From Lachnospiraceae bacterium UBA3845 (GTDB lineage Bacteria; Bacillota; Clostridia; Lachnospirales; Lachnospiraceae): a DNA stretch of 30,834 nt. Shown piece by piece: positions 15,200-30,834 of the stretch; position 1 is the first letter of the stretch; each line of letters starts with the position of its first letter. The position numbers were made by a program, and so were the translations under genes. Where the stretch lies: assembly GCA_002392705.1 (NCBI GenBank), contig DGHP01000157.1, positions 1 to 30,834 on the forward strand, in the 5' to 3' direction. The notes under the pieces are model-generated. The model did not search any database. It was not told the DNA's origin and saw only the letters and a list, made by a program, of their open reading frames with translations.

Positions 15200-16369
15200 T
15201 CAGGTCTTATCAATTCTGATCTCTCTTTTCCAGATCCTCCCGCTGGGCGGGCAGAAACCGCCGAAGCCCAGATCCTCCACCTCCAGCGTGCATTTTTTCT
15301 GTGAGGTAAAATAGAGGGTCATCCGCAGCCTGGTGGCGCGGTTCCTGCGGTCCGGAAAATGATCCAGCCTCAGTACGTGCCTGACGGTCTCCCCCTCTTC
15401 CATAGGGCTTGTCAGGACCGTGATACTCGTCTCTCCGTCGGGGATGATCTCACAGCTGCTGTGGGCTTCATACCAGTTGACCCCGGCGTTTACGAGCGGG
15501 TAATACTGCTCTCTCCCCCTGACCCGCAGCTGGATGCCCACATTCTCCGGGACCATGTCTACGCCGCTGAAGATAAGATCCGGCATCTGGATCCGGCCTG
15601 CCCTGGCCATCGCTCCGCAGCAGGCGCCCTTGGAGAACAGGTTCTGTCCCTGAAAGGCATGCCGCCGGAAGGTCAGGTACTGGAAGGAACGGACAGCCCA
15701 GGAACGGTCAAAATATGTCCCGTAGAGGTAGCTGGTGGTCACGTTTCTCCGCTCAAAGAGTCTGCCGAGGAGCTCGTATAAGAGACGGTCCCGCTCCTTA
15801 TCCCAGTCCTCGTCGCTCCTGCCGGCCCGGACGCTGTCGCTCACATCCGTCGAAGCGACTTCGCTGATCGAGACGATGCCCGGCCGGACCGTCCTGTCTA
15901 TATGCAGGATGTGGCCGATCATCCGCTCATTTTTGTACTGCAGGAAGGCAACGTCCCCGTTCCACAGTTCCCTGCGCTTATTGACAACATAATAGTAAAA
16001 GCTGGTCCGCCAGTCCTGAAAATAGAGATTCCTGCGCATGACGCCGATCTTCTCCATAGCCTGGGCAAGATTCTCGCTCATCTTCGGTTTCAGTTCCGGC
16101 AGCGTCACGCAGACGCTGACGCTTCCGGGATCCGGCTTCCCGGGTATCTGCTCCAGAAGTTCCTTCAGAAATGCCGCGAGCTTCTCAAGGGAGTAGCTCC
16201 CTCCCATGATGATGCCCTTCCAGACACTGACCGGAACTTCCTGCATGCCGCTCTCCCCGCCGGACGGCAGTACCAGGGTCTGGGGTTCGTCCAGCTGATC
16301 GCCGAACCATGTAATCTGCGCCCCTTCGCGGGAAATCTGCAGACCCGCAAAAGTCTCCTTCTGCTCCAT
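15200..16369 (-). CDS. DUF5716-type protein, possible actin/Hsp70-like fold
   Basis: A 389-residue protein that I match by memory to DUF5716; function unknown. The ATG follows GGAGAGAGAG. The N-terminal ETFAGLQISREGAQITW resembles the first strands of actin-like ATPases. PGSVSVCVTLPELKPKMSEN and AQAMEKIGVMRRNLYFQDWR resemble the Hsp70 pattern of strand, helix and 'lineup' segment. GDVAFLQYKNERMIGHIL and YLYGTYFDRSWAVRSFQYL, then GQNLFSKGACCGAM, recall the second half of such folds. Classical phosphate-binding motifs are weak, so ATP binding is unproven. The last ~130 residues look β-rich. It sits between the DUF5717-type gene and the TPR-like gene, behind a tandem repeat. Confidence 0.7.
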   Translation of the reverse strand: MEQKETFAGLQISREGAQITWFGDQLDEPQTLVLPSGGESGMQEVPVSVWKGIIMGGSYSLEKLAAFLKELLEQIPGKPDPGSVSVCVTLPELKPKMSENLAQAMEKIGVMRRNLYFQDWRTSFYYYVVNKRRELWNGDVAFLQYKNERMIGHILHIDRTVRPGIVSISEVASTDVSDSVRAGRSDEDWDKERDRLLYELLGRLFERRNVTTSYLYGTYFDRSWAVRSFQYLTFRRHAFQGQNLFSKGACCGAMARAGRIQMPDLIFSGVDMVPENVGIQLRVRGREQYYPLVNAGVNWYEAHSSCEIIPDGETSITVLTSPMEEGETVRHVLRLDHFPDRRNRATRLRMTLYFTSQKKCTLEVEDLGFGGFCPPSGRIWKREIRIDKT

Positions 16370-16412
16370 CTCTCTCTCCGATCTGTTTCAGAAAAGCGGC
16401 AGCATGAAAAAA

Positions 16413-16543
16413 CACAGCTCCGCTTTCATCGCCGCCAAAGGCAGAAACTGCCGCACAGCTCCGCTTTCATCGCCGCCGCGGGCAGGGACTTACATCACAG
16501 CTCCGCTTTCATCGCCGCCGCGGGCAGGGACTTACGTCACAGC
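16413..16543. repeat. Tandem repeat, 41-42-base period, three copies plus a stub
   Basis: Copies start at 16413, 16454 and 16496 with a partial fourth at 16538, each opening with CACAGCTCCGCTTTCATCGC. Copies 2 and 3 are nearly identical; copy 1 is diverged after about 24 bases. The fourth start overlaps the stop of the DUF5717-type gene, so the unit appears derived from that gene's 3' flank. The array fills most of the 167-base gap. Confidence 0.9.
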
Positions 16544-19500
16544 AATGTAAACAGTTCCCTTGTCAGAAGATCCGTCTCCTGATAATCCTCAAGCTCGCTG
16601 AGGTATTCCTCCCTGCTGCCCTCCTCCAGCTTCTGCGCCATCGCAAAGAGCTTTCCGTAGCGGCTGTTTTTCAGCGACTCCGGTACAGCCCGGGCCCGCA
16701 GAGTCCGCAGGCTGCTGCGGAAATGCTCCCCTTCCGGGCTGATCTCCTCTGTGCGGCACTCCAGCTCTTCGGAGCCGAAGAGGACAAATTCCCGGACCCG
16801 GATTCCCTGAAAGACATCTCTCATGGTCTCCTCCGTCCACTCCCCGTCCGTTCCCCTGAAGCGGTAATACAGCTTTACGCTGCTGGCAGGATCCGCCACA
16901 CATTCCAGAAAGACTTTATCGTCGATGCTCAGCGGATCTGTCAGTTCCGCCGGAAAACGCTGGAAAAAGGCAAAGCGGATCCCGCGGCTGCTGAACTGTT
17001 CCAGGAGTTTCGAGGCTGTTTTTTTCTTTTCTTCCGTCAGCTTAATCAGTCCTGACAGGTACTGGAGCAGGGCCAGCGCGCAGGTATCCGGCAGCTGCCC
17101 GCCCTTCAGATAATCGCTCAGGATATCCTCAAAAAGGAGCTCCGAAGTGGGTTCCCCCTTAACCAGATAGCGATAGCTTTTCAGAATCACATAGGCCTGG
17201 CAGAGCCTCCTGTTCCCCAGGGACGCGCGGTAGTTCAGGTAGATACCCTCGCTTCCCGAGCTGTCCTCCCCGGTAAACAGAAGCATGCTCAGAATCTTTC
17301 TCTCAAGATCCATCGTCTCCAGCTCATACTCATGCGCCGCGGCCCAGATCTGCCGCATGAGCGCAAGCGGTCCTTCGTAATAGAGAATCAGGTAGCGGAG
17401 AATGTTCTCATCATATTTGCCCAGCGAAAAGCAGAGGCCGCACAGGCCGGAGAGAAAACTTCTCTCCTCGAACTCGCAGGCGATGACCATCTGGGAGCAG
17501 ATGCGCACCAGAAGGGGAACGGGAAGATTCTCCGGCCCGTATTTTTCCAGGATTCCGTAGGCTTCCTCATAGAGGCCTTCCTGGGTCAGCAGGTAAAGCA
17601 GCTTCTGCCTGTCCAGGGCAATATAATCCGCATAGTTGATATGCCTGAGGAAATGGAAGAGATTCTCCTCGTCCGGATGGTCCGTATAATAATCCAGCAG
17701 CCAGCCCCGCACCTGCCTGCGGAATTCCTCCGACAGGGCGCTCATGTTCACGGCGCTGAGAAAATAGCCGAGATTCTTATGGCTGATCTTCTGCCGGCCG
17801 CCCGCATTCAGGCAGTAGAAAAGCACGATCCCCGGATCATCCGGGACAATCCGCGCGCACACATTCATCAGGGCCGGCGCGTCGAGCAGGTGCTCCGCCA
17901 TATACAGGGAAGTGGACGCATAGCGCCGCCCCTCATCATCCTCGAGAAGGATCCTGGAATCCTCCGAATATATCTGAATCTGCGCTTTCCGGCCGCTGAT
18001 CTGCACCACGGGATTTTTCTGAAGCCGCACGTCCGCGGTCAGAACTTTTTTCATGGCCGGGTTTCTGCAGTCAATCTCAAAGGTAAACAGAATCTGGACC
18101 AGATGTCTTGCCTGCTCCTGCGTCAGCGCCTTGCGGTCGATATAGCGGGCATAGAGTACGGCCAGATCGCTGTTGATCCGGCTCATCCGCAGCTGGTCCG
18201 TCATAAAGGAGCGGATCGCCGGAAGCATCGAGCTGTAGATCTGCGGTATGTTTTCCCTGCTGTCGGAAATATTCCTGTAGATCTTCGCTTTCCGTCTCCA
18301 GTCCAGCGCGTCGTTGTATACAAAGTAGCGGCGGATGATCTGGGGCATCCGTTCAATCCGGCATTCCCCCATCGTCTCCATGTAATATTCGTAAAGGCCG
18401 TTGATCGTCAGCTCGCGGCTTACGGCCGCTTGATAGATCGGGAAATAGCGCTCGTCCCGCTTCTCCCCGGCGACCGCCAGCGTGCACCAGGCGGTAAGGA
18501 TATCCCGCAGCTGACTCTGCTCATAGCATCTGCCGAGCAGGCGGAAGGTGGCCGGATCATACTGGGGCTTTCTGAGAACCAGGCCTGCTGTCTGCAGATA
18601 GAGCTGCTCCGTCATCAGGCCGTTCCGTGACGCGAAATCAACGATCATGCGTACCGGAAGATTCCACTCGTGAATCAGCCAGGGATTCTTCTGAAGAATC
18701 AGCGCGCCTTCCAGGTACATGACCGGGCTGTTGCAGCCGAGTCTGATCTGCTGGACAATCAGATCCAGGCGCGCGCTGTCAGTGGGGAATTCATCTTCCA
18801 GAAGGTAGAGCTGAAGCCAGCGGATGACCCAGCACCTGCGGTTCTTAAGATACAGCTGCCTCACCTTCCTGCGTACTTCATTCACCTCATCCTGACCGCT
18901 CCTGAAAAAGGTGGACAGATAAAGCCACACCGCATAGCGGGAGGGATCTTCCGTTAAGATCTTGTTTTTCTCCAGATCGGAAAGAAGCTTCTCCGCCCTG
19001 GCCTTCCTGCCCTCCGCCTGCAGCACAAATATATGCAGAAGGTCCGCATACGGGTCGGTTCCCCCTGCGCGGAGATAACTCCCGATCACGGACTCGCTGC
19101 GGTCCGTCCAGCTTCGCAGATCGATCCTGCCCAGCCGGTAATCCAGATAAAGCTGAACCGCCCTGCGGACCATCAGGGCCCGCACCCGGTGCTGACGGTG
19201 GTCCTCCGTAGTGCTGCGGTCAACCCTCACGTCGCACAGGAGGGTCTGATAGCTGGTCCGGATCCGGATCCGCGCGTAGCTGCTTCCCGCATGCAGGAAG
19301 TTCGAGTCGATGATAAAGCGGAGTTCATACTCGCTTCCCCCGAAGTCACGGGTCGTGACAGACTTCTTCTCCGGCCTGAGGAAACGCGCGTCCGAGGAGA
19401 TATCCATCTCCAGATATCCCCAGCCGCTGCAGCTGATCTTCAGGGTCTCCAGGACCGTTCCCTCCGGGTCAGCCATCTGGATCTTATTCCTGTCCAGGCT

Positions 19501-20178
19501 GATCTCAACAGGTTCCTTTTTCCCGCAGCCGATCAGGAATTCCTCCAGCCCCCGTTCCCGGCCCTCCTGCGTAATCAGGGCCTGGTAAAGGGTCCTGACC
19601 GAAGCGCTCTCCTTTTTGAGGCTTTCACGGAATTCTTCTGAGGCAAAAAGCTCACAGGCGGCCGTGTAATCCTCCCTGGCGGTCTTTACCAGAAGGTTAA
19701 GGTCCGTCGGGACTTTCGCCGGAAAAGCTTTCTCCTTCTCTCCTCCTGTCCCGCCGCCTTCGTTATTCTGCTGCCCTTCTGTCTCCTCTTTTGTCTCCTC
19801 TTCTGTCTGCCCGTTTCCCGAAAGCGCCGCATTCCTGCCCTTCACGGACACACTGCAGGGCACATGAAGCTCCCCCAGGTCGGTGGACAGGGTAAATACC
19901 CCCTCGGTCATGCCGCCTGCTTCCAGGCCGGTCGTATCCACGCGGAAGCGGATCGAAGCGGCGGAGCTGTAGAACTCCTCCGGCTCAATCTTCATTCTCG
20001 GATTTGAGGAATACACAAATCCCCGGATCCTGCGCTCCTGCGGGTGAGATACGGTAAAGACGCCGCCTGCAGCGGTGCCTTCTTTCACCTCCAGCCGGAT
20101 ACTGTCACAGGACAGGACCGGAACCGGTTTTTCATATTCAAATGTCTCACTCAGAAGCTGTTCCAGGCGTCTGCGCAC
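16537..20178 (-). CDS. Giant DUF5717-type protein with β-sandwich N-terminus and helical repeats
   Basis: A 1213-residue protein I match by memory to DUF5717; function unknown. The start is a GTG (20176-20178) after GGGAGGGGG. By eye: residues 17-115 form a β-rich, Ig-like module (VFTVSHPQERRIRGFVYSSN); 118-150 is a low-complexity Glu/Gly/Gln linker; 155-220 is helical; 222-322 is a second β-rich module (EISLDRNKIQMADPEG, YARIRIRTSYQTLLCDVRV); the remaining ~890 residues are almost all amphipathic helices suggesting a TPR/HAT-like solenoid. No signal peptide or membrane helix is seen, so it is probably cytoplasmic. It follows nrdR by 86 bases and precedes the DUF5716-type and TPR-like genes. 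No catalytic motif was found. Confidence 0.75.
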   Translation of the reverse strand: MRRRLEQLLSETFEYEKPVPVLSCDSIRLEVKEGTAAGGVFTVSHPQERRIRGFVYSSNPRMKIEPEEFYSSAASIRFRVDTTGLEAGGMTEGVFTLSTDLGELHVPCSVSVKGRNAALSGNGQTEEETKEETEGQQNNEGGGTGGEKEKAFPAKVPTDLNLLVKTAREDYTAACELFASEEFRESLKKESASVRTLYQALITQEGRERGLEEFLIGCGKKEPVEISLDRNKIQMADPEGTVLETLKISCSGWGYLEMDISSDARFLRPEKKSVTTRDFGGSEYELRFIIDSNFLHAGSSYARIRIRTSYQTLLCDVRVDRSTTEDHRQHRVRALMVRRAVQLYLDYRLGRIDLRSWTDRSESVIGSYLRAGGTDPYADLLHIFVLQAEGRKARAEKLLSDLEKNKILTEDPSRYAVWLYLSTFFRSGQDEVNEVRRKVRQLYLKNRRCWVIRWLQLYLLEDEFPTDSARLDLIVQQIRLGCNSPVMYLEGALILQKNPWLIHEWNLPVRMIVDFASRNGLMTEQLYLQTAGLVLRKPQYDPATFRLLGRCYEQSQLRDILTAWCTLAVAGEKRDERYFPIYQAAVSRELTINGLYEYYMETMGECRIERMPQIIRRYFVYNDALDWRRKAKIYRNISDSRENIPQIYSSMLPAIRSFMTDQLRMSRINSDLAVLYARYIDRKALTQEQARHLVQILFTFEIDCRNPAMKKVLTADVRLQKNPVVQISGRKAQIQIYSEDSRILLEDDEGRRYASTSLYMAEHLLDAPALMNVCARIVPDDPGIVLFYCLNAGGRQKISHKNLGYFLSAVNMSALSEEFRRQVRGWLLDYYTDHPDEENLFHFLRHINYADYIALDRQKLLYLLTQEGLYEEAYGILEKYGPENLPVPLLVRICSQMVIACEFEERSFLSGLCGLCFSLGKYDENILRYLILYYEGPLALMRQIWAAAHEYELETMDLERKILSMLLFTGEDSSGSEGIYLNYRASLGNRRLCQAYVILKSYRYLVKGEPTSELLFEDILSDYLKGGQLPDTCALALLQYLSGLIKLTEEKKKTASKLLEQFSSRGIRFAFFQRFPAELTDPLSIDDKVFLECVADPASSVKLYYRFRGTDGEWTEETMRDVFQGIRVREFVLFGSEELECRTEEISPEGEHFRSSLRTLRARAVPESLKNSRYGKLFAMAQKLEEGSREEYLSELEDYQETDLLTRELFTLL

Positions 20179-20987: not shown

Positions 20988-21611
20988 TCAGTCGAAGAAC
21001 AGGTATCTGGCAGCAGACTCCAGGATCCGGGCGGACTGTTCCACCCCGAAGGCGGAAGTGTCCAGCAGCAGCTGCCGGCCGGCTACCTCATCCGGAAAAT
21101 CGGCGGAAAAACGTTTTCTGTACTCTCTTCTGGCCCTGTCCTCGCTGGCGATCAGGGTACGGGCGTAATTCTCATCCGTGTGGAGCATCTCCATGCAGTT
21201 CCGGACCCGGACTTCATCCGGGGAGTAGAGAAACACATTCAGGCATCTCTTCTTCCCGTGAAAGATCTGATCCCCGCAGCGGCCCAGTATGATACAGGGT
21301 CCTTCCTCTGCCAGCTTCCGGATCACCTCCGCCTGGGCATTAAACAGAGCCTGGGCTTCATCCGCAGCCGGATCCTTTGCCTCCCTGCGGAAGAGCCTGG
21401 CCATGAAGCCCTGCGGGGCGCCTGTCTCCTCCGTCCGGCCGGAGGTCTCACCCTCCGTCCCGGGATCCTGGAGGGTGCCGGGTGTCTGGACCATGGCTTC
21501 CACACTGCTGCGGTCATACACCGGGATCTGAAGGAGTTCCCCCAGCAGAGCGGCGATCTCATGTCCCCTGCTCCCGAACATCCTTGAGATGGTGATCACA
21601 TAATTCTCCAT
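20988..21611 (-). CDS. Cytidylate-kinase-like family protein
   Basis: A 207-residue P-loop protein of the cytidylate kinase-like group (pfam Cytidylate_kin2), whose physiological substrate is not established. The ATG (21609-21611) follows GGGAGGGG and is one base after the stop of the GTPase-NYN gene, so translation is coupled. The family start ITISRMFGSRGHEIAALLGE matches the usual ISREFGSGGREIG pattern, but with Arg for the second Gly of the loop. Then come IPVYDRSSVEAM, a proline/glutamate-rich insertion (about residues 45-80), CIILGRCGDQIFHGKKRCLN and RDRARREYRKRF-like basic lid residues. True CMP kinases (cmk) differ and are usually near rpsA or ispH, so I do not use that symbol. Confidence 0.82.
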   Translation of the reverse strand: MENYVITISRMFGSRGHEIAALLGELLQIPVYDRSSVEAMVQTPGTLQDPGTEGETSGRTEETGAPQGFMARLFRREAKDPAADEAQALFNAQAEVIRKLAEEGPCIILGRCGDQIFHGKKRCLNVFLYSPDEVRVRNCMEMLHTDENYARTLIASEDRARREYRKRFSADFPDEVAGRQLLLDTSAFGVEQSARILESAARYLFFD

Positions 21612-21612
21612 T

Positions 21613-24570
21613 TTATCCCCTCCCGCAGGCTGCGGACGGATCCTGTTTTTGCCGCGTGCCGTCAGCCTGTTCCACGGTCCCGGTTCCGGGATCTTCAAAG
21701 CTTTTTCTGCCCAGCCGGACATCCTCCATCAGCTTTGCCATCTCCCCGGACAGCCCGTCAAAAAGCAGGTTTCTGCCTGATCCGGCCTTCGCCAGATAAT
21801 CGGAGCGGATCTCGCGGCTTGTTCCTTCGACAGCCTCTTTAAGTTCACGCGCCGACATCCTGCGGGCTCCCGCTCCCCATATGATAATCTGCTCCGCATT
21901 GTCGCTGGTTGCCACCGTGATATCCGCCCCGCGGCTGATCCGGTGGACGGCCCGCTCGATATAGCGGTCGGCAGTCTCCGCTTCTTTTGTGTACACGATA
22001 TAGATATTATGATACTTTTCGACGTGCTCTGTGCCGCCTTCCACCCGGTAGGCGTCGAATACGAGGATCAGGTTCATCTTCCTGAAGCCCTGGTAATTGC
22101 TCAGAATATCCGCGAGCTTCGTCCTGGCGCCCGCCATTTCCCTGCCTGCCAGATCTCTCAGCTCGTCCCAGTCAAAGATAATATTGTACCCGTCCACCAG
22201 GAGAAACTCTTCCGTCTCCTCCTTCTTTCTCGGACGATGCAGGCCCGTGGGGCCGCTTCTTCCGCCTCCCGGCCTGTTTTCCCAGTTAATGGAGCTTCCG
22301 GTCAGTTCTTCTCCGATCCTTCTGCGGACCGGGCCGTAGGTACGCTCAAAGATCGCATCCAGCTCCGCGGCCGTCGCTTCCGACTCCCTGAAGCGCTCAT
22401 AGGCGCTTCTGCGGAAAGCTTCCTCCTCCGCGGGCGAAAGAACCCCGTCCGCGCCTTCTGACAGAGAACTCTCCCCGCCCGCAGTGCGCAGAGGCAGGTG
22501 CATATACCCCTCCACCTGATCCCAGGGAACCTCGAATCCGGAGCCGTGGGCGCAGAAGACAGACCATGTGGGATTGCGCAGGTCCCTCTCCGGATCGTAG
22601 GCTGCCTTTTCAATCACTTCCTCCGGATTGTGGCAGGGCCCGTAGCCCCTGGCTGTCAGCTCCAGCCAGCCGCGTCCCGAGGTGTAAGCCCGCACCTGGG
22701 CCTGATAGTTGCGCATGGTGCTGACCGGCGCCCAGCCTGTCAGATGGGCCATCTCACCTTCGATCCCGGGCGGATCCACATGTCCCGCGGCGTTTTCTAT
22801 GTCAAGAAGCGCTCTTCCCACATAGGCGGAGGGAAGATCCAGGGTGAAATTGTAAAAGGGTTCCAGCAGGACGCTCCTGCATTTCATAAGTCCCTGGCGC
22901 AGTGCCCTTCTCGAAGCCTGGCGGAAGTCCCCGCCCACAGTATGCTTGATGTGCGCCTTCCCGGACAGAAGCGTCACCCTGATGTCAGTCAGCTCGGACC
23001 CGGTCAGGACTCCGACCTGCCTGTGCGCGCGCAGGGTGGAGAGGGCAAGTCTCTGCCAGTTCCGGGCCAGCAGATCCGTCGGGCAGTCTGATTCATAGAC
23101 GATCCCGCTGCCCCTCGCGCCGGGTTCCAGAAGCAGATGAACCTCCGCGTAATGGCGCAGGGGCTCAAAGTGTCCTACGCCCTCCGCGCTGTCTTCAATG
23201 GTCTCCCGGTAGACGATCTGTCCGTCCCCGAAGGCGATCTGCGTCCCGTAGCGCTCCTCAAAGAGGCTTTTCAGGATCTCCGTCTGCACTTCCCCCATCA
23301 CCCGGACATGGATCGCGCCGCTGTGTTCCTCCAGCCGGGGCGAAATCTCCGGAATCTCCTCCGCCAGTTCCCTCAGCCTTCCATACATGACAAGCCTGTC
23401 CTCCTCGGGCGGATAGACAAGGTCATAGGAAAGCACCGGCTCGACCGCCGCGGATACACTTTCCGTGCAGGAACCGTAGGTCTGCCCGCAGAAGGAGGCG
23501 GCAAGTCCCGTCACCGCCGCAACCTGGCCCGCGGAGGCCTCCTCCGTCTGGGTAAAGCGGTCTCCGGAGTAGAGCCTGATCTGATTGATCTTCTCCGTCT
23601 GCCCCTCAGATGAATCCTGCGTCCCTGACTCCGTTCCGCAATCCCCGTCCTCTTCCTCACCAAAAGTCTGCGCGCCGGCTCCGTCAGGAGGATTCAGGTG
23701 CCCCGTGACCAGGGCCCTGCTGCGGATTCTTCCTCCGGTAATCTTCAGCCAGCTGAGCCGGTTTCCTTTCTCATCCCTGGAGATCTTGTAGCACAGGGCC
23801 CCGAAATCATCCGGTACTTCTTTCTCCCGGATCAGCATATGCAGGCCGTTCAGGAAAGCCCCCGTGCCTTCCCCCTTCAGGGCTGACCCGAAAAAGCAGG
23901 GAAAAAGTTTTCTGAGTTCAAACAGCTGACGGAGCTCATCATCGGTCAGAACCCCCTTCTCCAGGTAGGCTTCCATGGCCGTCTCATCGCACATGGCGGC
24001 GCTGTCATAAAAATCCTCCAGGCTCCCGCCGCCCCCGTATAAGCTTTTCCCGGCCGGAACAGCCTGCAGTTCTTCACCCGCGGCATCCGTCCAGGGGGTA
24101 AAGGAGACGCAGCGCTCATCCAGCTGCTTCTGCAGCTTCCCCAGCACTTCCCCGGCATCCGCCCCGGGCTGGTCCATCTTATTGACAAAGATCAGGGTCG
24201 GGAGTCTGTAACGCTCAAGCAGCTTCCACAGGGTCATGGTATGGCCCGTCACCCCGTCCGATGCGCTGATCAGAAGAACCGCGCAGTCCGCAATCTGCAG
24301 CGTGCGCTCGGTCTCCGCGGAAAAATCCACATGGCCGGGCGTGTCCAGCAGGGTCAGATCCCTGCCGCCCAGAGGGATCCGGGCCATCTTGGAAAAGATC
24401 GTGATCCCGCGCCTGCGTTCCAGTTCGTGCGTATCCAGGAAGGAATCTCCGTGATCAACCCTGCCCGCCCTGCGGATCACGCCGGTCTCAAGCAGGATCT
24501 GCTCCGCGAGGGTGGTCTTCCCGGCGTCCACATTGGCCAGGACCGCCACACAGATTCCGGTCTGTTTCAT
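21613..24570 (-). CDS. Tet(M)/EF-G-like translational GTPase fused to a YacP/Rae1-type NYN ribonuclease
   Basis: 985 residues. The GTPase domain has ANVDAGKTT (12-20), RRGITI (53-58), DTPGH (76-80), NKMD (130-133) and GSALKG (228-233). Domains II-V continue to about 680, with an acidic low-complexity insertion (293-327). The domain IV tip reads HIKHTVGGDF (540-549) where Tet(M) has its YSPVSTPADF tetracycline-site loop. A linker (690-787) leads to a YacP/Rae1-like NYN domain (788-925): LLVDGYNIIFDW, LILVFDAYRV, TKEAETADRYIE, ATSDNAEQIIIWGAGARRMS. Rae1 cuts mRNA in the ribosomal A site in B. subtilis, so the protein may bring a ribonuclease to ribosomes by GTPase action (inference). AAGGAG lies 8 bases before the ATG. 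Tetracycline resistance is unlikely. Confidence 0.93.
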   Translation of the reverse strand: MKQTGICVAVLANVDAGKTTLAEQILLETGVIRRAGRVDHGDSFLDTHELERRRGITIFSKMARIPLGGRDLTLLDTPGHVDFSAETERTLQIADCAVLLISASDGVTGHTMTLWKLLERYRLPTLIFVNKMDQPGADAGEVLGKLQKQLDERCVSFTPWTDAAGEELQAVPAGKSLYGGGGSLEDFYDSAAMCDETAMEAYLEKGVLTDDELRQLFELRKLFPCFFGSALKGEGTGAFLNGLHMLIREKEVPDDFGALCYKISRDEKGNRLSWLKITGGRIRSRALVTGHLNPPDGAGAQTFGEEEDGDCGTESGTQDSSEGQTEKINQIRLYSGDRFTQTEEASAGQVAAVTGLAASFCGQTYGSCTESVSAAVEPVLSYDLVYPPEEDRLVMYGRLRELAEEIPEISPRLEEHSGAIHVRVMGEVQTEILKSLFEERYGTQIAFGDGQIVYRETIEDSAEGVGHFEPLRHYAEVHLLLEPGARGSGIVYESDCPTDLLARNWQRLALSTLRAHRQVGVLTGSELTDIRVTLLSGKAHIKHTVGGDFRQASRRALRQGLMKCRSVLLEPFYNFTLDLPSAYVGRALLDIENAAGHVDPPGIEGEMAHLTGWAPVSTMRNYQAQVRAYTSGRGWLELTARGYGPCHNPEEVIEKAAYDPERDLRNPTWSVFCAHGSGFEVPWDQVEGYMHLPLRTAGGESSLSEGADGVLSPAEEEAFRRSAYERFRESEATAAELDAIFERTYGPVRRRIGEELTGSSINWENRPGGGRSGPTGLHRPRKKEETEEFLLVDGYNIIFDWDELRDLAGREMAGARTKLADILSNYQGFRKMNLILVFDAYRVEGGTEHVEKYHNIYIVYTKEAETADRYIERAVHRISRGADITVATSDNAEQIIIWGAGARRMSARELKEAVEGTSREIRSDYLAKAGSGRNLLFDGLSGEMAKLMEDVRLGRKSFEDPGTGTVEQADGTRQKQDPSAACGRG

Positions 24571-24671: not shown

Positions 24672-25901
24672 TCAGCGGCGGAGCCTGGATCCCAGCAGCA
24701 GCGCCGCGGCAAGAGCAGCCGCCCCGATCAGCATCCAGAGCGCGAAATGATCCGAGGAGCCGCTTCCTTCCAGCGCCTGGGTGACGGGCGTGATCAGGAG
24801 AATGCTGCCAAGGTAAAAGGCGGGCAGAAGCAGGGCAAAGGAATTCTCCGCGTCCCGGTCCAGCCGCACGTCATCGATCAGGATCAGCCGGGGAAATACC
24901 GGCCCCAGCGCCGTGCCGGTCAGGAACTGGCAGGCAAAAAGAACCGTCTGCGAAGGAACACTGTCCCGCAGAAGGATCAGTTCCAGGACCAGGACCAGAA
25001 TCAGCAGGCTGCTGCATAAGGCATAGAGCAGACCGCTCCTGACGCGGGCAGCCGCCGCCGCGGCTCTTCCGCACATCACTCCGGCAGCCGTAAGCAGAAT
25101 ACCGTATACCGTGAAGGAGGAGTCGACGATCTGCGCCCCGCCGGCGGTCACCAGATAATTCTGAGGCCACAGGGCTCCTGCCAGAAGCAGAAAGCCGGTA
25201 AGTCCCGCCGCCAGGTAGGCGGCTCCCATCCTGAGAAGATAATTCTCTTCAATCTTCTCCTCCGCTTCCGCGTCCTGTCCGGTCCGTTCCTTCCGGTCAC
25301 TTTCCCTTTTCCGCAGGTACTCCCTCCTGCGGGCCTCCAGATACCGCACACTGTGCTTTTTCTTGACCGCCATCCGGAGAATCAGGAAAAGCAGCAGGGA
25401 GAGAAGGATCTGAAAGATCGCAAGGAACTGGCATGCCGTTCTCCAGCTGTGGCCGGACCGGATGCCCTGGTCCAGCAGGAAAGCCCCGAAACCGGCGCCG
25501 GCGGCGGAACCTGTGAAAAGGAACATCACACGGCCCGCACTCAGCCTGACAAGCGCCGCGCACAGGAGGGTCAGGCTCATCCCCAGGCCGGCGCCCAGTA
25601 CCGTGATCCACAGGGCCAGGTTCCAGAACACCCGGGAAAGGGAGAAGCCGATCAGGCTCAGTGTCTCCAGACAGACAGCGATCACTGTCAGGTCGAGAAC
25701 ATACTGCCTTTCCTTCAGTTTTTCGCACAGAATACAGGCCGCTGCAGCCCCAAGCACGAGCAGTGTCCGGAGCATGGCGACATAGGGCACCCCCACCGTC
25801 AGATTCACGCTGATTTCATCCCAGAGCACACTGAGTATGCTGACTGGCAGGGCTGCGGCAAAAAATACCAGCAACGTTACGATTGTATATAATCCGGTCA
25901 T
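24672..25901 (-). CDS. MFS-like membrane transporter
   Basis: A 409-residue membrane protein with about 12 hydrophobic helices in two halves, joined by a long charged cytoplasmic loop (about residues 178-222, rich in Arg, Lys and Glu: YLEARRREYLRKRESDRKER). This is the layout of the major facilitator superfamily. No substrate motif could be read. The start ATG overlaps the whiA stop (ATGA), with GAGGAG just upstream in the end of whiA, so the two are translationally coupled. It lies between whiA and the GTPase-NYN gene, 101 bases before the latter; that gap holds a GGGG/CCCC hairpin without a T-run. What it transports, and why it is tied to whiA, is not known. Confidence 0.75.
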   Translation of the reverse strand: MTGLYTIVTLLVFFAAALPVSILSVLWDEISVNLTVGVPYVAMLRTLLVLGAAAACILCEKLKERQYVLDLTVIAVCLETLSLIGFSLSRVFWNLALWITVLGAGLGMSLTLLCAALVRLSAGRVMFLFTGSAAGAGFGAFLLDQGIRSGHSWRTACQFLAIFQILLSLLLFLILRMAVKKKHSVRYLEARRREYLRKRESDRKERTGQDAEAEEKIEENYLLRMGAAYLAAGLTGFLLLAGALWPQNYLVTAGGAQIVDSSFTVYGILLTAAGVMCGRAAAAAARVRSGLLYALCSSLLILVLVLELILLRDSVPSQTVLFACQFLTGTALGPVFPRLILIDDVRLDRDAENSFALLLPAFYLGSILLITPVTQALEGSGSSDHFALWMLIGAAALAAALLLGSRLRR

Positions 25902-26848
25902 GGCTGCTGCTCCTCCCCGCGCAGGCGTGCGGCAAGCTCGCTGAGCCGCTGCAGCCGGTGGTTGACTCCCGATCTCCCGATCGGGGGATCCAGGGCTTCC
26001 CCCAGTTCTCTCAGTGTCGCGTCCGGCATCTTCAGGCGCAGCTCAGCTGCCTCCCTGAGTCCCTGCGGCAGCTGTTCAAGGCCGACGCTGTCCCGCAGAT
26101 AACGGATGTCCTCCGTCTGGCGCACGGACGCGTCCACAGTCTTCATCAGATTTGCCGTCTCACAATTGACTCTCCGGTTCACGGTGCCCGCGATATTGCG
26201 CACGATGCGGGCATTTTCAAGCTTCATCAGGCTCTGGTGGGCCCCCATCAGGCCCAGCGCGTCCGAAATCTGCTCCCCCTCCTTGAGATAGACAACGAGC
26301 TGCTGCTTTAAACGCCGCTTCCTCGGTATGATCCTGGCGTCCAGGGAGAGGGAATTCATGAGGCCCGCCAGAAACTCCGCGTCCTCCTCCTTCTGGCAGA
26401 CGATCTCAAAATGATAGCTCTTCTCGGGATTGTTCACGGAACCCGCGAGCAGGAAGACAGCTCTTAAAAAAGCCTTTCTGCAGCAGGACTTCTGCACCAG
26501 CATTCCGTCCAGCGGCAGGTCCGCAAAAGATCCGCGCTCTGCGGCCTCCTCCATCCGGACCGCGTTCAGGAGGCGGAGGATCTGCTCTTTCTCCCGGATG
26601 AGGACCTTAAATCCCCCGCCCCGGACGCCGCCGGGAAGTCTCAGGGTCAGGACCTCGCACTCGGCAAACTTACTCAGCGCAGATTCAAAGAAGCGGGCGG
26701 CATATTCATTTTCTGTCTGAATACCGGCTCCGTCTTCGCCGATGTACCCGCTGAAATGGAGCATGGCGGCGATGGAGGCGATTCTGCAGTGTCTCGCGCT
26801 GTCCAGGCGGCCGGCCATCTCTTCTTTCACTTCACTGGAAAATGACAT
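25898..26848 (-). CDS. whiA: DNA-binding protein WhiA
   Basis: Conserved regulator of Gram-positive bacteria, needed for sporulation in Streptomyces and acting on cell division and chromosome segregation in Bacillus. The 316 residues are typical. The start MSFSSEVKEEMAGR is the family start. The N-terminal part is a degenerate LAGLIDADG endonuclease fold (ARHCRIASIAAMLHFSGYI, KAFLRAVFLLAGSVNNPEKSYH has the family's SVNNPEKSYH motif). The C-terminal helix-turn-helix region contains RVNCETANLMKTVDAS and the signature GRSGVNHRLQRLSELA. It starts 12 bases after rapZ. In most Firmicutes yvcK sits between rapZ and whiA; here it is absent. Confidence 0.97.
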   Translation of the reverse strand: MSFSSEVKEEMAGRLDSARHCRIASIAAMLHFSGYIGEDGAGIQTENEYAARFFESALSKFAECEVLTLRLPGGVRGGGFKVLIREKEQILRLLNAVRMEEAAERGSFADLPLDGMLVQKSCCRKAFLRAVFLLAGSVNNPEKSYHFEIVCQKEEDAEFLAGLMNSLSLDARIIPRKRRLKQQLVVYLKEGEQISDALGLMGAHQSLMKLENARIVRNIAGTVNRRVNCETANLMKTVDASVRQTEDIRYLRDSVGLEQLPQGLREAAELRLKMPDATLRELGEALDPPIGRSGVNHRLQRLSELAARLRGEEQQP

Positions 26849-26860
26849 CGCAATCCCTCA

Positions 26861-27724
26861 TCAGCGGCTGATGTCCCGGTGCAGAACCACAACCGGATAT
26901 TTTCCTTCTGCCGCGAAATATTCACTCAGCATGTTGGTGACCGTAACCGAGCGGTGTTTGCCGCCCGTGCAGCCCACCGCGATCAGCAGCTGTCTCTTCC
27001 CCTCCGCGAGATAGCGCGGGAAAAGGAATTCCAGAAGATCCGTCAGCTTGAGCAGGAATTCATCCGCCTCCTTCGTCTGGCAGACATAGTCGCGGACCTC
27101 CCTGTCATTTCCGGTCTTGTTCTTCAGATCATCCACATAGAAGGGGTTCGGTAAAAAACGCACGTCAAAAACAAGATCCGCGTCGGCGGGAATCCCATAT
27201 TTATACCCGAAGGAAAGGATAGACACAAAAAGGCTGCTGCTCTCCGGGTTACCGGCAAAGATCCGGTCCAGCTTCCCCCTAAGCTGCCTGGTCAGAAGAT
27301 CACTGGTATCAATCACATAGTCCGCCCTGTTTTTCAGTTCCTCCAGCAGAGCTCTCTCCTTCCGGATCCCGTCTTCTATTCGCCCTTCCTCGGCCAGGGG
27401 ATGCCTGCGCCTTGAGGCCTTGTATCTGCGGACCAGCTGCTCTACGCCGCAGTCCAGAAAAAGAATCTCATAAGCGTATTCCTGCATGGCTCCGAAGAAA
27501 TCCTCCACGCGTGAGGAGCGGTCCCTGTTCTTGTACAGGCTCCTCACATCCAGCCCCAGGGCGACCTTGCTGTACTCCTGGGCGGGGTTTGCCGCTAGTT
27601 CGGCAAATTTGCCGATCAGTTCCAGGGGAAGGTTGTCCACGCAGAAATAGCCTGCGTCCTCCAGCATCTTCAGTGCTTCGGTCTTTCCTGATCCGGACAT
27701 GCCGGTTACGATGACAAATCTCAT
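26861..27724 (-). CDS. rapZ: RNase adapter/nucleotide-binding protein RapZ (YvcJ)
   Basis: P-loop nucleotide-binding protein; in E. coli RapZ presents the small RNA GlmZ to RNase E, while in Firmicutes (YvcJ) its role is less clear and includes GTP hydrolysis. The 287 residues begin at the ATG 27722-27724, 6 bases after GGAGGGA; a longer in-frame start runs into murB. Walker A GMSGSGKT is at 8-15, followed by MLEDAGYFCVDNLPLELI. Later motifs are DVRFLPNPF and the C-terminal IAVGCTGGKHRSVTVTN. It is 40 bases after murB and 12 before whiA, the classic cluster. Confidence 0.96.
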   Translation of the reverse strand: MRFVIVTGMSGSGKTEALKMLEDAGYFCVDNLPLELIGKFAELAANPAQEYSKVALGLDVRSLYKNRDRSSRVEDFFGAMQEYAYEILFLDCGVEQLVRRYKASRRRHPLAEEGRIEDGIRKERALLEELKNRADYVIDTSDLLTRQLRGKLDRIFAGNPESSSLFVSILSFGYKYGIPADADLVFDVRFLPNPFYVDDLKNKTGNDREVRDYVCQTKEADEFLLKLTDLLEFLFPRYLAEGKRQLLIAVGCTGGKHRSVTVTNMLSEYFAAEGKYPVVVLHRDISR

Positions 27725-27764
27725 GTCTGTCCCTCCTGCTTCCCGGTCAATTCTGTCCCGGCTT

Positions 27765-28694
27765 TCAATCAAACCCCAGCATCCTGACCTCAGGCTCCAG
27801 CTCTACGCCGCTCGTCGACAGGACTTCTGTCTTCACATGCTCCATCAGGTCGCGGACATCGGCTGCTGTCGCATGATCTGCATTGACCAGGAAACCGCAG
27901 TGCTTCTCACTGACCATCGCGCCTCCGACCCTGCAGCCACGAAGCCCCGCCTCGTCAATCAGGGCCGCGGCAAAATAACCCTGGGGCCGCTTGAATGTGG
28001 ATCCGGCGCTCGGCAGATCCAGCGGCTGCTTCAGGGTCCGCTTCTGCCGAAGTTCCTCCATCCTGGCGCGGATCTGTTCCGCATCCCCTTTCTTCAGCTT
28101 AAGTACAGCGGAAAGAACCACCAGATTCTCCTTCTGGACAATGCTGGTCCGGTAGGCGAACTGCATCTGTTCTCCGTCAAGTTCTCTGATCTCCCCCTCC
28201 GGAGTGAGCACACGCACAGAAAGGGTGATATCCTTCATCTCTCCCCCGTAGGCGCCGGCGTTCATGGACAGGGCGCCGCCCAGCGTGCCGGGGATGCCGG
28301 ATTCCGGCTCCATGCCGGTCAGGGATTCTTCCATGGCTCTTCTCGCGATGGCGGAAAGCATGGCGCCTGCCTGGGCATGGATCAGTTCCCCTTCTGTCCG
28401 GATCTCATTCATATTCCGGCTGACCTGGACCACGATGCCCCTGTAGCCTTCGTCGCTGACAAGCAGATTGCTGCCGTTCCCCATCACCGTGCAGGGAAGC
28501 TTCTTAGACCTGCACAGTATAAGCACATCCCTGAGTTTCTCCTCATCCGGAGGTATGACAAATACTGTCGCCGGGCCGCCGATCCGGAATGTTGTATGGA
28601 TGCTCATCGCTTCCTCTTCCAGGACCGCTTCAGCCCCGCAGATCCGGCGGATCTGTTCTGCTGCCTCTTTTAACGTGATTTCTTCCCTTATCAT
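27765..28694 (-). CDS. murB: UDP-N-acetylenolpyruvoylglucosamine reductase
   Basis: FAD enzyme that reduces UDP-GlcNAc-enolpyruvate to UDP-MurNAc with NADPH, the second committed step of peptidoglycan precursor synthesis. The 309 residues start at the ATG 28692-28694 (MIREEITLKEAAEQI), with GGGAGAGAA before it; an upstream frame of 94 extra codons lacks homology and is rejected. FAD-binding motifs MGNGSNLLVSDEGYRGIVV (71-89) and GIPGTLGGALSMNAGAYGGE (133-152) are present. The catalytic serine lies in AGSTFKRP (230-237), and the C-terminal domain ends with HVKTEVLSTSGVELEPEVRM. It heads the murB-rapZ-whiA cluster. Confidence 0.97.
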   Translation of the reverse strand: MIREEITLKEAAEQIRRICGAEAVLEEEAMSIHTTFRIGGPATVFVIPPDEEKLRDVLILCRSKKLPCTVMGNGSNLLVSDEGYRGIVVQVSRNMNEIRTEGELIHAQAGAMLSAIARRAMEESLTGMEPESGIPGTLGGALSMNAGAYGGEMKDITLSVRVLTPEGEIRELDGEQMQFAYRTSIVQKENLVVLSAVLKLKKGDAEQIRARMEELRQKRTLKQPLDLPSAGSTFKRPQGYFAAALIDEAGLRGCRVGGAMVSEKHCGFLVNADHATAADVRDLMEHVKTEVLSTSGVELEPEVRMLGFD

Positions 28695-28809
28695 ATTCTC
28701 TCCCGTATTTTTTCCCGCCTGCAGTGCGCTGTCATACCCGCGGCTGGCTTTCTGTCCGTTGCGATTCACGGCCCCCACGTCAGGATACAGGCGCTGTTTC
28801 TGACCGGTT

Positions 28810-30834
28810 TCAGGCGTCTTCATCCATGCCGGCCCCGGCGGAAGCATCCTCCTGCGCTTCAGGCTCTCCGGCGGTCTCCTTTGCCGGCAGCTTTTTCCGG
28901 CTTTTGCGCAGGGCCGGTCCGCGTTTTTTTCTCCGCTCCGTCTCAAAAGACAGAAGGTACAGGGCGGCGCAGACAAGAGAAAGGATCGTTCCTTCCTTTA
29001 TTCCGTCCGGAACATAGCTGAGAAGAATCTCATGGCTGCCGGCAGTCAGCGGGAGGCCCAGAAGGGCGGACCCGATCCGGTCTGCCGTGACTTCCTTCCC
29101 GTCCACCGTGCATTTCCAGTTCCTGTCGTAGGGTACCGTAATCAGCAGCTCCGCGTCCTCCGGAGCTTCAATCGTACCGCTGAGCCGGTGTCCCTGTGCC
29201 CTGACGTTCTCCAGCTGATGGGCGGCCAGATGCTCTATGACTGCCTTCTCCGCCGCGTCCGGGCAGGTATATATGGACGCCTCCTTTTTGCCGGAGGAGT
29301 TGTTCAGCGTCACAGTAAATGAGGCGTCCCGGTTCCCGTCAGAGGAATAGACGGAATAAAGATGGTCCGTATAAGTCGCGTAGGTCTTGTGAAACTCCGG
29401 CGTCGTAAGGTTCATCTCCTTCACCCGGGAAGGCAGATAGATGTAAACCTGCTTGCCATCCGGAATCCGGATCCCGTTCGACACCCCGTCCTCCAGGGAA
29501 ATATATCTGTCCAGGCGGAAAATGTCCTCCATCCCGGTCGCCAGGCGGACAAAGGCGTTCTGCACCTCTATGGGAGTTCCCTGTTCGATATCCCAGTCCA
29601 GCAGTTCTTTATTCGTCAGAAAGCCGATCGCCAGCGCGTCATCATTCCGGTAAAGCGTCAGGTTCCCGTCATCCGTCACCGGTTCCATCCCGTAGAAGCT
29701 GCTGCCCGTCCCGTGGGCGGAGAGCACATACTTTATGCCCAGCACATCGTTCATCAGCTCCGTCACGCCGTTATAGCCGTTTTTGTTGGTCCTGGCCTCA
29801 ATTCCGAGCCGGTCGCAGAAATCCGTCACGGAAGCCTGCATGGTGGAATTGAACATCACGAGCGCTTTCCCGCCGCAGAACATGGTGACATTCCGCATCC
29901 TCTGGGCGTCCACCTCGGACCGGTACCAGGAGCTGTCGCCGATCCCGGCCATCAGGCTTTTATAGGAAGCCTGATCCTTCAGGTAGATGTCCCTTGTGAC
30001 AGAATCATTGCAGATGATCCCGTAGACCGCGCTCGCTCCGGCTTCCACCACCAGAAAGCCTGAAAGGAGAAAGGCATAGAACTGTCTCTTCATGCGGCTG
30101 ATGCGGACGATCAGAAGAAGACCGAAATAGATGCACAGCAGAAGAAGGGTGACAATATAAGTTTCATTTCCGTAGGCTTCCCCTTCATAGTTTTCCCCGA
30201 GCCTCAGAAGGAAGACAGCAAGCGCGAACACGACGGGCACCGCGCCGCTGACGATGATCTTCCACAGTGACATGGCGGGAATATCGGCTGACGCGTCGAA
30301 GCACATAACCAGGATCACCGCCACATAGAGGAAGGCGAATCGGTTCGGAATCCCGTTCTGCTGATGAAAACCATGCCAGATGTAGTTGAGCACATTGAGC
30401 GAAAAGCTCAGGAGCAGAAAAGCCGTCAGCGCAAAGAAGGCGGCTTTCTCCCTAAGCCGGATCCTGCGGTCAAGCAGATAGAGAATCACCAGCAGGAAGA
30501 TGGATACGCCGCAGTAAGCGTTCAGTCCGACCTGGGAGTTCGCGATATTGATCGGGGGAATCCCCGCAAAATGCGCCATGACAAGGTCCAGGAAACTGTC
30601 ATAGAACTTGATCACGCCCGGAAATTTATTGCTCTGCATGGACTCGGAGATGGTCAGGGCCCGGTAGGCCGGAAACAGCACCATCGCGCCCATGCCGCCC
30701 GCAAGCAGGGAAAACCAGCCGAAGCGGAATATCCTCGCAAGGAAAAGCTTCAGGGAGGCAAAACCTGCCGAAATCATGCATACGATAAAATACAGAACGG
30801 CGAAGATGCAGAGCATGAAGCCGATGTAATAATT
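28810..30834 (-). CDS. YfhO-family membrane protein, 5' end beyond the window
   Basis: Large polytopic membrane protein of the YfhO family. In Bacillus and Listeria relatives it is linked to lipoteichoic acid or undecaprenyl-phosphate glycosylation; the exact role here is unknown. The frame stays open to 30834, so the protein starts upstream: 674 residues are visible, beginning NYYIGFMLCIFAVLYFIVCM, a typical YfhO segment. About 9 membrane helices are followed by a periplasmic-type domain (residues about 270-600) with DRNWKCTVDGKEV near the C-terminus, a last helix (GTILSLVCAALYLLSFE) and a charged tail rich in Lys and Glu. It lies 115 bases before murB in the same orientation. Confidence 0.88.
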   Translation of the reverse strand, partial: NYYIGFMLCIFAVLYFIVCMISAGFASLKLFLARIFRFGWFSLLAGGMGAMVLFPAYRALTISESMQSNKFPGVIKFYDSFLDLVMAHFAGIPPINIANSQVGLNAYCGVSIFLLVILYLLDRRIRLREKAAFFALTAFLLLSFSLNVLNYIWHGFHQQNGIPNRFAFLYVAVILVMCFDASADIPAMSLWKIIVSGAVPVVFALAVFLLRLGENYEGEAYGNETYIVTLLLLCIYFGLLLIVRISRMKRQFYAFLLSGFLVVEAGASAVYGIICNDSVTRDIYLKDQASYKSLMAGIGDSSWYRSEVDAQRMRNVTMFCGGKALVMFNSTMQASVTDFCDRLGIEARTNKNGYNGVTELMNDVLGIKYVLSAHGTGSSFYGMEPVTDDGNLTLYRNDDALAIGFLTNKELLDWDIEQGTPIEVQNAFVRLATGMEDIFRLDRYISLEDGVSNGIRIPDGKQVYIYLPSRVKEMNLTTPEFHKTYATYTDHLYSVYSSDGNRDASFTVTLNNSSGKKEASIYTCPDAAEKAVIEHLAAHQLENVRAQGHRLSGTIEAPEDAELLITVPYDRNWKCTVDGKEVTADRIGSALLGLPLTAGSHEILLSYVPDGIKEGTILSLVCAALYLLSFETERRKKRGPALRKSRKKLPAKETAGEPEAQEDASAGAGMDEDA

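Follow-up and report, generated by a model that had tools for sequence, protein, structure and literature searches.

A GTPase fused to a YacP/Rae1-type nuclease

The window analysed here is a 30,834-nucleotide stretch of DNA from Lachnospiraceae bacterium UBA3845 (GenBank assembly GCA_002392705.1, contig DGHP01000157.1, positions 1 to 30,834 of the forward strand). On its minus strand lies a single gene whose 985-amino acid (aa) product joins an intact GTPase of the EF-G/Tet type to a C-terminal nuclease domain of the YacP/Rae1 family (Table 1). The GTPase half gives a Pfam GTP_EFTU match of 157.8 bits and carries all five G motifs, D15xGKTT20, RGIT54-57, DTPGH76-80 with its histidine, NKMD130-133 and SAL229-231, which together with domains IV and V are the sequence features of the EF-2/EF-G family. 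Against the PDB, this half matched EF-G and TetO/TetM. The NYN_YacP match scores 168.8 bits against a cut-off of 24.6, and the only solved structures matched by the nuclease part alone are those of Bacillus subtilis YacP (5mq9, 2.2e-25; 5mq8, 5.1e-25), the one other chain listed being unrelated (E = 0.61). Judged by these matches, the NYN domain is YacP/Rae1 proper.

The single-gene fusion is confirmed. The NYN domain was present in all 120 proteins listed, of 7986 homologues scored, and a fused frame was found at all 80 named loci that were fetched (the best kept of 564 confirmed stretches). Most of these loci are titled Lachnospiraceae or Clostridia, with one Cellulosilyticaceae (L131) among them, and a Monoglobus record contains the fusion as well. 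The nearest named relative (L062, 85%) is the basis on which the window's family is taken as Lachnospiraceae. When the window gene is compared by a simple counting method with its nearest relative, nonsynonymous divergence (dN) is 0.077 and synonymous divergence (dS) 0.56 in the GTPase half (dN/dS ~0.14), with 0.051 and 0.40 in the NYN part (~0.13). The fused frames and the low ratios in both halves led us to reject an assembly chimera. Across 82 fused proteins, D15, G17-T20, R54-T57, D76-H80 and N130-D133 are unchanged (with A or S at position 16), the SAL motif (G5) shows a few exchanges, and D793, D839, D868, E872, D890 and E893 are always present, as is E865 in 81 of the 82. The original prediction, made from the letters of the window alone, of one gene joining a GTPase with five G motifs to a YacP/Rae1 nuclease is thus borne out, and neither a loss of the catalytic acids nor a score as good for an unrelated family was found. 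L033 is counted among these 82 proteins and is absent from the set of 95 nuclease domains used below; L200 (G616) gave no frame by the motif filter and is absent from the GTPase tree; and L214, marked as solo in the trees, is a 921-aa fusion with VDSYN.

An AlphaFold2 model was built from 56 aligned fused proteins, taken from 81. Its mean predicted local distance difference test score is 79 and its predicted template modelling score (pTM) 0.59; the EF-G body is mostly confident, with a low-confidence insert at residues 295-321 inside domains II/III, and the nuclease is mostly confident at about 787-927. In a fold comparison of the whole model EF-G came first and TetM 34th and 50th among the rows shown; many matches exceeded 10 Å root-mean-square deviation, and the comparison was uninformative on the nuclease part. 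The linker varies between 74 and 136 residues in the fused proteins (median 97), and E736 and I740 within it are invariant in the 56. These two residues belong to a short acidic-hydrophobic motif of ELxxIFxRT type, set on a helix (22336-22434, minus strand) amid variable linker sequence. A relaxed version of the motif occurs in 75 of the 82 fused proteins, and the motif is possibly a docking peptide.

Table 1. Features of the fusion gene and the gene adjoining it (positions in the window)
Feature	Position	Strand	Basis or remark
GTPase-NYN fusion gene	21613..24570	minus	985 aa plus stop, ATG start
G domain, GTP_EFTU, residues 7-245	23836..24552	minus	Pfam; G motifs and His80 of DTPGH intact
Domains II and III, residues 256-448	23227..23805	minus	EF-G alignment and predicted model; no Pfam match of their own
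Domain IV, EFG_IV, residues 450-564	22879..23223	minus	Pfam
Domain IV tip loop I, residues 464-477, GVGHFEPLRHYAEV	23140..23181	minus	Alignment
Domain IV tip loop III, residues 537-550, GKAHIKHTVGGDFR	22921..22962	minus	Alignment; Tet(M/O/Q/S) have SPVST at the same place
Domain V, EFG_C, residues 567-648	22627..22872	minus	Pfam
Subfamily-specific C-terminal extension, residues 646-691	22498..22635	minus	CHN..EVI..YD..D..NP.wSVFCAHGSGF.VPWDQV..YMH
Linker, residues 692-786	22213..22497	minus	Low confidence at 699-711 and 748-782; helix 713-745
NYN_YacP/Rae1 nuclease domain, residues 790-952	21715..22203	minus	Pfam; D793, D839, D868, E872, D890
Cytidylate kinase-like gene (PF13189)	20988..21611	minus	ATG one base after the TAA of the fusion

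Tip loops and phylogeny of the GTPase

The GTPase was compared with five Tet/Otr-like references and with the genome's own EF-G-like protein (705 aa, C78), which is encoded by a separate gene. Loop I at the tip of domain IV reads GHFEPLRHYAEV in the subfamily, PPNPFWA in Tet and GGKGQYGH in EF-G, while loop III reads HxKHTxGGDFR in the subfamily and YYSPVSTPADFR in Tet(M/O/Q/S), with APSST in place of SPVST in the Otr-like reference. The exact loop I string is present in 37 of 50 subfamily rows and in 70 of the 82 fused proteins, the loop III pattern in 44 of 50 and in all 82, and the SPVST loop in none of either set. Nowhere are the 56 fused proteins more conserved than in these two loops (invariant residues: 11 of 14 in loop I, 10 of 14 in loop III and 21 of 28 together, as against 161 of 985 overall), as expected of a probe of the decoding centre. 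Exceptions include the Ligilactobacillus salivarius protein (loop III ASNVHTVGGDFR) and L202 and L210, which have several exchanges. Unfused sister GTPases have the same loops, with exchanges, and the same C-terminal extension, so the tip is older than the fusion or independent of it. The extension is absent from the Tet and EF-G references compared.

A quick tree of 57 rows places the subfamily in one clade (support 100 in the Shimodaira-Hasegawa-like approximate likelihood ratio test) and the Tet and Otr-like references in another (99), with a program warning of long branches at the join that leaves the exact joins unsure. Ten unfused sisters group together (94), the L. salivarius protein falls with the fused group (97) and the split protein of genome G331, described below, lies inside it. 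The GTPase had been described in the original prediction as Tet(M)/EF-G-like; its EF-G-type motifs and domains agree with this, and the front half matches the GTP_EFTU, EFG_IV and EFG_C profiles, but its tip and clade are distinct from those of Tet(M), and the best NCBIfam match, tet_protect, reaches 384.5 bits, about half of the curated cut-off of 775. Membership of the Tet group was rejected on the score, the missing SPVST loop and the position outside the Tet clade. To judge from the alignments and the tree, the GTPase is a distinct EF-2-family clade, outside the Tet kind, with decoding-tip loops and a C-terminal extension of its own.

These results bear on a Tet-type role, in which the GTPase would throw tetracycline off the ribosome with the aid of the RNase, a possibility raised by Atkinson et al. 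(2015; PMC4342817). That tet_protect is the best match at all, that both sequence and fold resemble EF-G and, less well, TetM, and that the NYN-less L. salivarius sister is annotated as TetM/W/O/S family would all accord with it. The half-height score, the loops and the separate clades (with the warning just given) speak against it, as do two further counts. Of 72,556 plasmid records, only two have a match over 80% of the protein, and on this ground a mobile resistance gene was rejected; and in a sample of 140 genomes of the window's family, covering 139 genera, the GTPase is carried by 119 of the genera, unlike a patchy resistance gene. We regard protection against tetracycline as very improbable.

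Active site and surface of the nuclease domain

D793, D839, D868, E872 and D890, located by alignment to YacP and taken by us to be catalytic, are present in 95 of 95 fused nuclease domains, and an inactivated nuclease was rejected for this reason. Fused and free domains differ elsewhere. R904 and R952 are both present in all 46 free YacP proteins, whereas of the 95 fused domains 45 keep both and 17 keep neither. A tree made without the arginine columns requires four changes of R904 and eleven of R952, in no case among the free rows. The mean net charge, computed over the aligned columns of the domain, is -5.7 for fused domains (n = 95), -1.5 for free ones of the same family (n = 12, reduced from 13 by dropping L245 of G413, which lies near a contig end and is probably a piece of a fusion) and +1.2 for free ones elsewhere (n = 32). 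Two genomes of one genus have both kinds: there the fused copies stand at -5 and -5 with Leu/Leu, and the free copies at +2 and +4 with Arg/Arg. Free and fused labels change three times on a first tree, made without L210 and L214 owing to the motif used, and twice on a larger one; the fused domains may be of single origin.

Once tethered, a nuclease can afford a weaker grip, and we therefore read the relaxed arginines as relaxed self-docking; together with the acidity they would fit a transfer of ribosome docking to the GTPase. A changed substrate would look the same in these data. This touches on a role in ribosome assembly or RNA maturation, with the GTPase checking new subunits and the NYN domain trimming rRNA or tRNA. 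Anantharaman and Aravind (2006; cited in PMC4342817) earlier put forward a maturation role for NYN domains, and EF-2-family GTPases that do such work are known (Ria1); the wide distribution in the family and the greater acidity of the nuclease, which might reflect a different substrate, would suit it as well. Against it, free Rae1, with the same five acids, is presented in two papers as a translation-dependent cutter of mRNA, reported to attack the message in the A site in one (a review; PMC12320835) and proposed to act there in the other (PMC10100781). The tip is, moreover, of the decoding-centre kind, and 14 of the 140 family genomes lack both the gene and its nuclease, so that it is dispensable. 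A maturation factor seems to us quite unlikely.

Distribution of fused and free forms

Within the family sample YacP was found in 126 genomes and the GTPase, scored by an alignment (A1) of its own C-terminal extension, in 120. All 120 also have YacP, the GTPase is missing from all 14 genomes that lack YacP, and six genomes have YacP without the extension. The 126 YacP matches comprise 111 in frames of at least 840 aa, that is, of fusion size, three in shorter frames of 516-735 aa, a pair of small ones close to contig ends that may be truncated fusions, nine that look free and one, in G331, in a separate frame. At least one stop falls inside the nuclease match in 17 of the 111 fusion-sized frames, and an overrun of a shorter protein's end would look alike. 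Free YacP and an unfused subfamily GTPase occur together in G254, G319, G343 and G348, and in G386 with the GTPase frame interrupted; the unfused GTPase of G356 lies outside the subfamily. Fusion and free YacP are found side by side in two genomes (G171, where the fusion runs off the contig, and G197), and G050 has the fusion and a 48-aa scrap of YacP. The window's own genome (198 contigs, 83.9% complete) gave no second NYN_YacP match, so that no free yacP was found in it, a check that the original prediction had proposed.

In G331 (C93; L150/L196) GTPase and nuclease occupy two frames that overlap by 23 bases, which is either a real split gene or a frameshift of the draft genome.

A sample of 398 genomes from the phylum yielded YacP in 208 and the GTPase in 29 (30 matches, a weak partial one in G779 being set aside). 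Of these 29, 23 have fusion-sized frames, all with YacP, and six have unfused frames. At this scale the link between unfused GTPase and free YacP is weak, YacP being present in four of the six as against 208 of 398 overall.

A proposed mode of action

In factors of the EF-G type, domain IV occupies the A site of the ribosome. The original prediction saw in a GTPase that binds the same site a natural carrier for the nuclease; the A-site action proposed for Rae1 agrees with this, but domain IV fills that site and the two halves would compete. Since this is also the place proposed for Rae1, the halves either take turns or the nuclease cuts elsewhere, and a linker of the lengths observed permits both. 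We suggest, giving it an even chance of being right, that the protein is a GTP-operated, ribosome-targeted mRNA endonuclease. The GTPase half would enter the factor site of a ribosome that has probably stalled, and the conserved tip of domain IV would probe the decoding centre. During or after GTP hydrolysis domain IV would leave the A site, and the Rae1-type nuclease, tethered on its linker of ~100 residues, would then cut the mRNA there, whereupon the ribosome would be rescued and the message destroyed. We infer ribosome binding, the order of the steps, stalling as the trigger and the cut; the succession of binding, probing, GTP hydrolysis, withdrawal of domain IV and entry and cutting by the nuclease is the most economical account. 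It draws on the domain make-up, the intact active sites of both halves, the subfamily's own tip, the mRNA cleavage reported for Rae1, the wide distribution, the relaxed arginines and acidity of many fused nucleases, and the joint occurrence of GTPase and YacP in the family. Corrected in this way for competition over one site, the GTP-driven rescue or surveillance nuclease of the original prediction survives as the leading hypothesis.

Several observations weigh against this account. Domain IV and the nuclease cannot both occupy the A site, and the predicted model gives no trustworthy position for the nuclease (low pTM and a low-confidence linker). In one fused protein, L209 (G520), both tip loops are lost together (HFATAEQYAEVH and HNKYTDEIALQE). 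Two of the six unfused GTPases of the phylum sample (G762 and G812) are in genomes without any YacP, so the GTPase can work alone, and the joint absence of GTPase and YacP in the family may be the simple loss of one fused gene. In the nuclease, E893 is kept in 88 and E865 in 84 of the 95 fused domains although both are conserved in free copies, and the fused active site may thus not be wholly unchanged. The window's protein keeps R904 and R952 and so itself shows no relaxation. Finally, with only two changes to or from the fused label, the charge difference amounts to about one evolutionary event and its P value of 1.6e-5 is overstated.

Some of these points would also suit the absence of any mechanical coupling, the halves being fused for joint expression and each acting on the ribosome by itself. 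The two overlapping frames of G331, the existence of unfused GTPases, two of them without YacP, and the long, variable linker lean that way; set against them are the retention of the fusion in many genera and several families, the low dN/dS in both halves of the window pair, the relaxed arginines in fused copies only and the chance that the G331 split is a draft-genome frameshift. We consider uncoupled halves unlikely.

A GTP-operated mRNA endonuclease of this design might represent a new, GTP-gated class of mRNA surveillance, in which a dedicated GTPase first examines the decoding centre and then yields the A site to a nuclease tied to it, a nuclease in the course of losing its own ribosome-binding surface; we hold this tentatively, at somewhat less than an even chance. 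If true, most genera of a main gut bacterial family would carry a quality-control device in one polypeptide. A natural fusion of nuclease and GTPase also makes the sharing of the A site on a stalled bacterial ribosome directly testable with purified ribosomes, and it suggests that some annotated tetracycline resistance factors are mislabelled, with consequences for counts of resistance genes.

Genes around the fusion

The cytidylate kinase-like gene that follows the fusion is preceded by a purine-rich stretch and, given this arrangement, is probably co-translated with the fusion in this genome. It lies beside the fusion in only one of the 80 relatives (L062, 106 bases away) and is therefore not part of the system; a single distant match was found 2.8 kb from the fusion in L081. 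We searched the 80 relatives, of which 76 have at least 800 bases downstream and 68 at least 1400 upstream, for five neighbours from the window. All five were near the fusion in L062 only, and a conserved operon partner was rejected accordingly.

Elsewhere on the minus strand of the window are DUF5717 (1213 aa) and DUF5716 neighbours (15203-20178), a tRNA-Leu with AAG anticodon (2198-2282) and, upstream of the fusion, WhiA, RapZ, MurB and a YfhO membrane protein in a row (25901-30816). One membrane-type open reading frame without a Pfam match lies between this row and the fusion.

Comparison with known systems

Atkinson et al. (2015; PMC4342817) described 'Tet proteins' from ten Clostridiales that carry a YacP-like NYN domain, in which the authors saw a possible novel resistance mechanism. 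Those proteins most probably have the same architecture and belong to the same family; unlike their filing as Tet in that paper, they would here fall into a separate subfamily that lacks the Tet tip and is present in most sampled genera of the family. A full-text literature search found no other paper on the fusion; the main Rae1 papers lie outside that search and may mention it. New here are the separation from Tet, the wide distribution and the relaxed nuclease arginines. The fusion architecture itself has been known in print since that survey of 2015, which preceded the description of Rae1 in 2017.

Among nucleases the closest counterpart is Rae1/YacP of B. subtilis (5mq8, 5mq9), which belongs to the same Pfam family, is the only significant PDB match and keeps the five acids. 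It is, however, a free protein with a 181-residue PDB chain (free relatives have 169-176 aa), whereas the nuclease of the window is tethered to a GTPase; the fused relatives are also more acidic on average than free Rae1/YacP, and R904 and R952 are optional in them.

On the GTPase side, EF-G shares the fold and the G motifs and differs in the tip loops and the C-terminus. Tet(M), Tet(O), Tet(Q), Tet(S) and Otr(A) share the EF-G domain order, 24.5-27% identity with the window protein and DFR after loop III, but they have other loops I and III, no such C-terminal extension and a clade of their own. The NYN-less sisters, such as that of L. salivarius pHN3 (HN6_RS10880), are 39-46% identical and have the tip loops, with exchanges, and the extension, but they end soon after it, with no nuclease domain. 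The L. salivarius gene (L032, 3977-5911) is on a 243 kb plasmid, adjoins rpsN and is annotated as a TetM/W/O/S resistance protein although its product lacks the SPVST loop.

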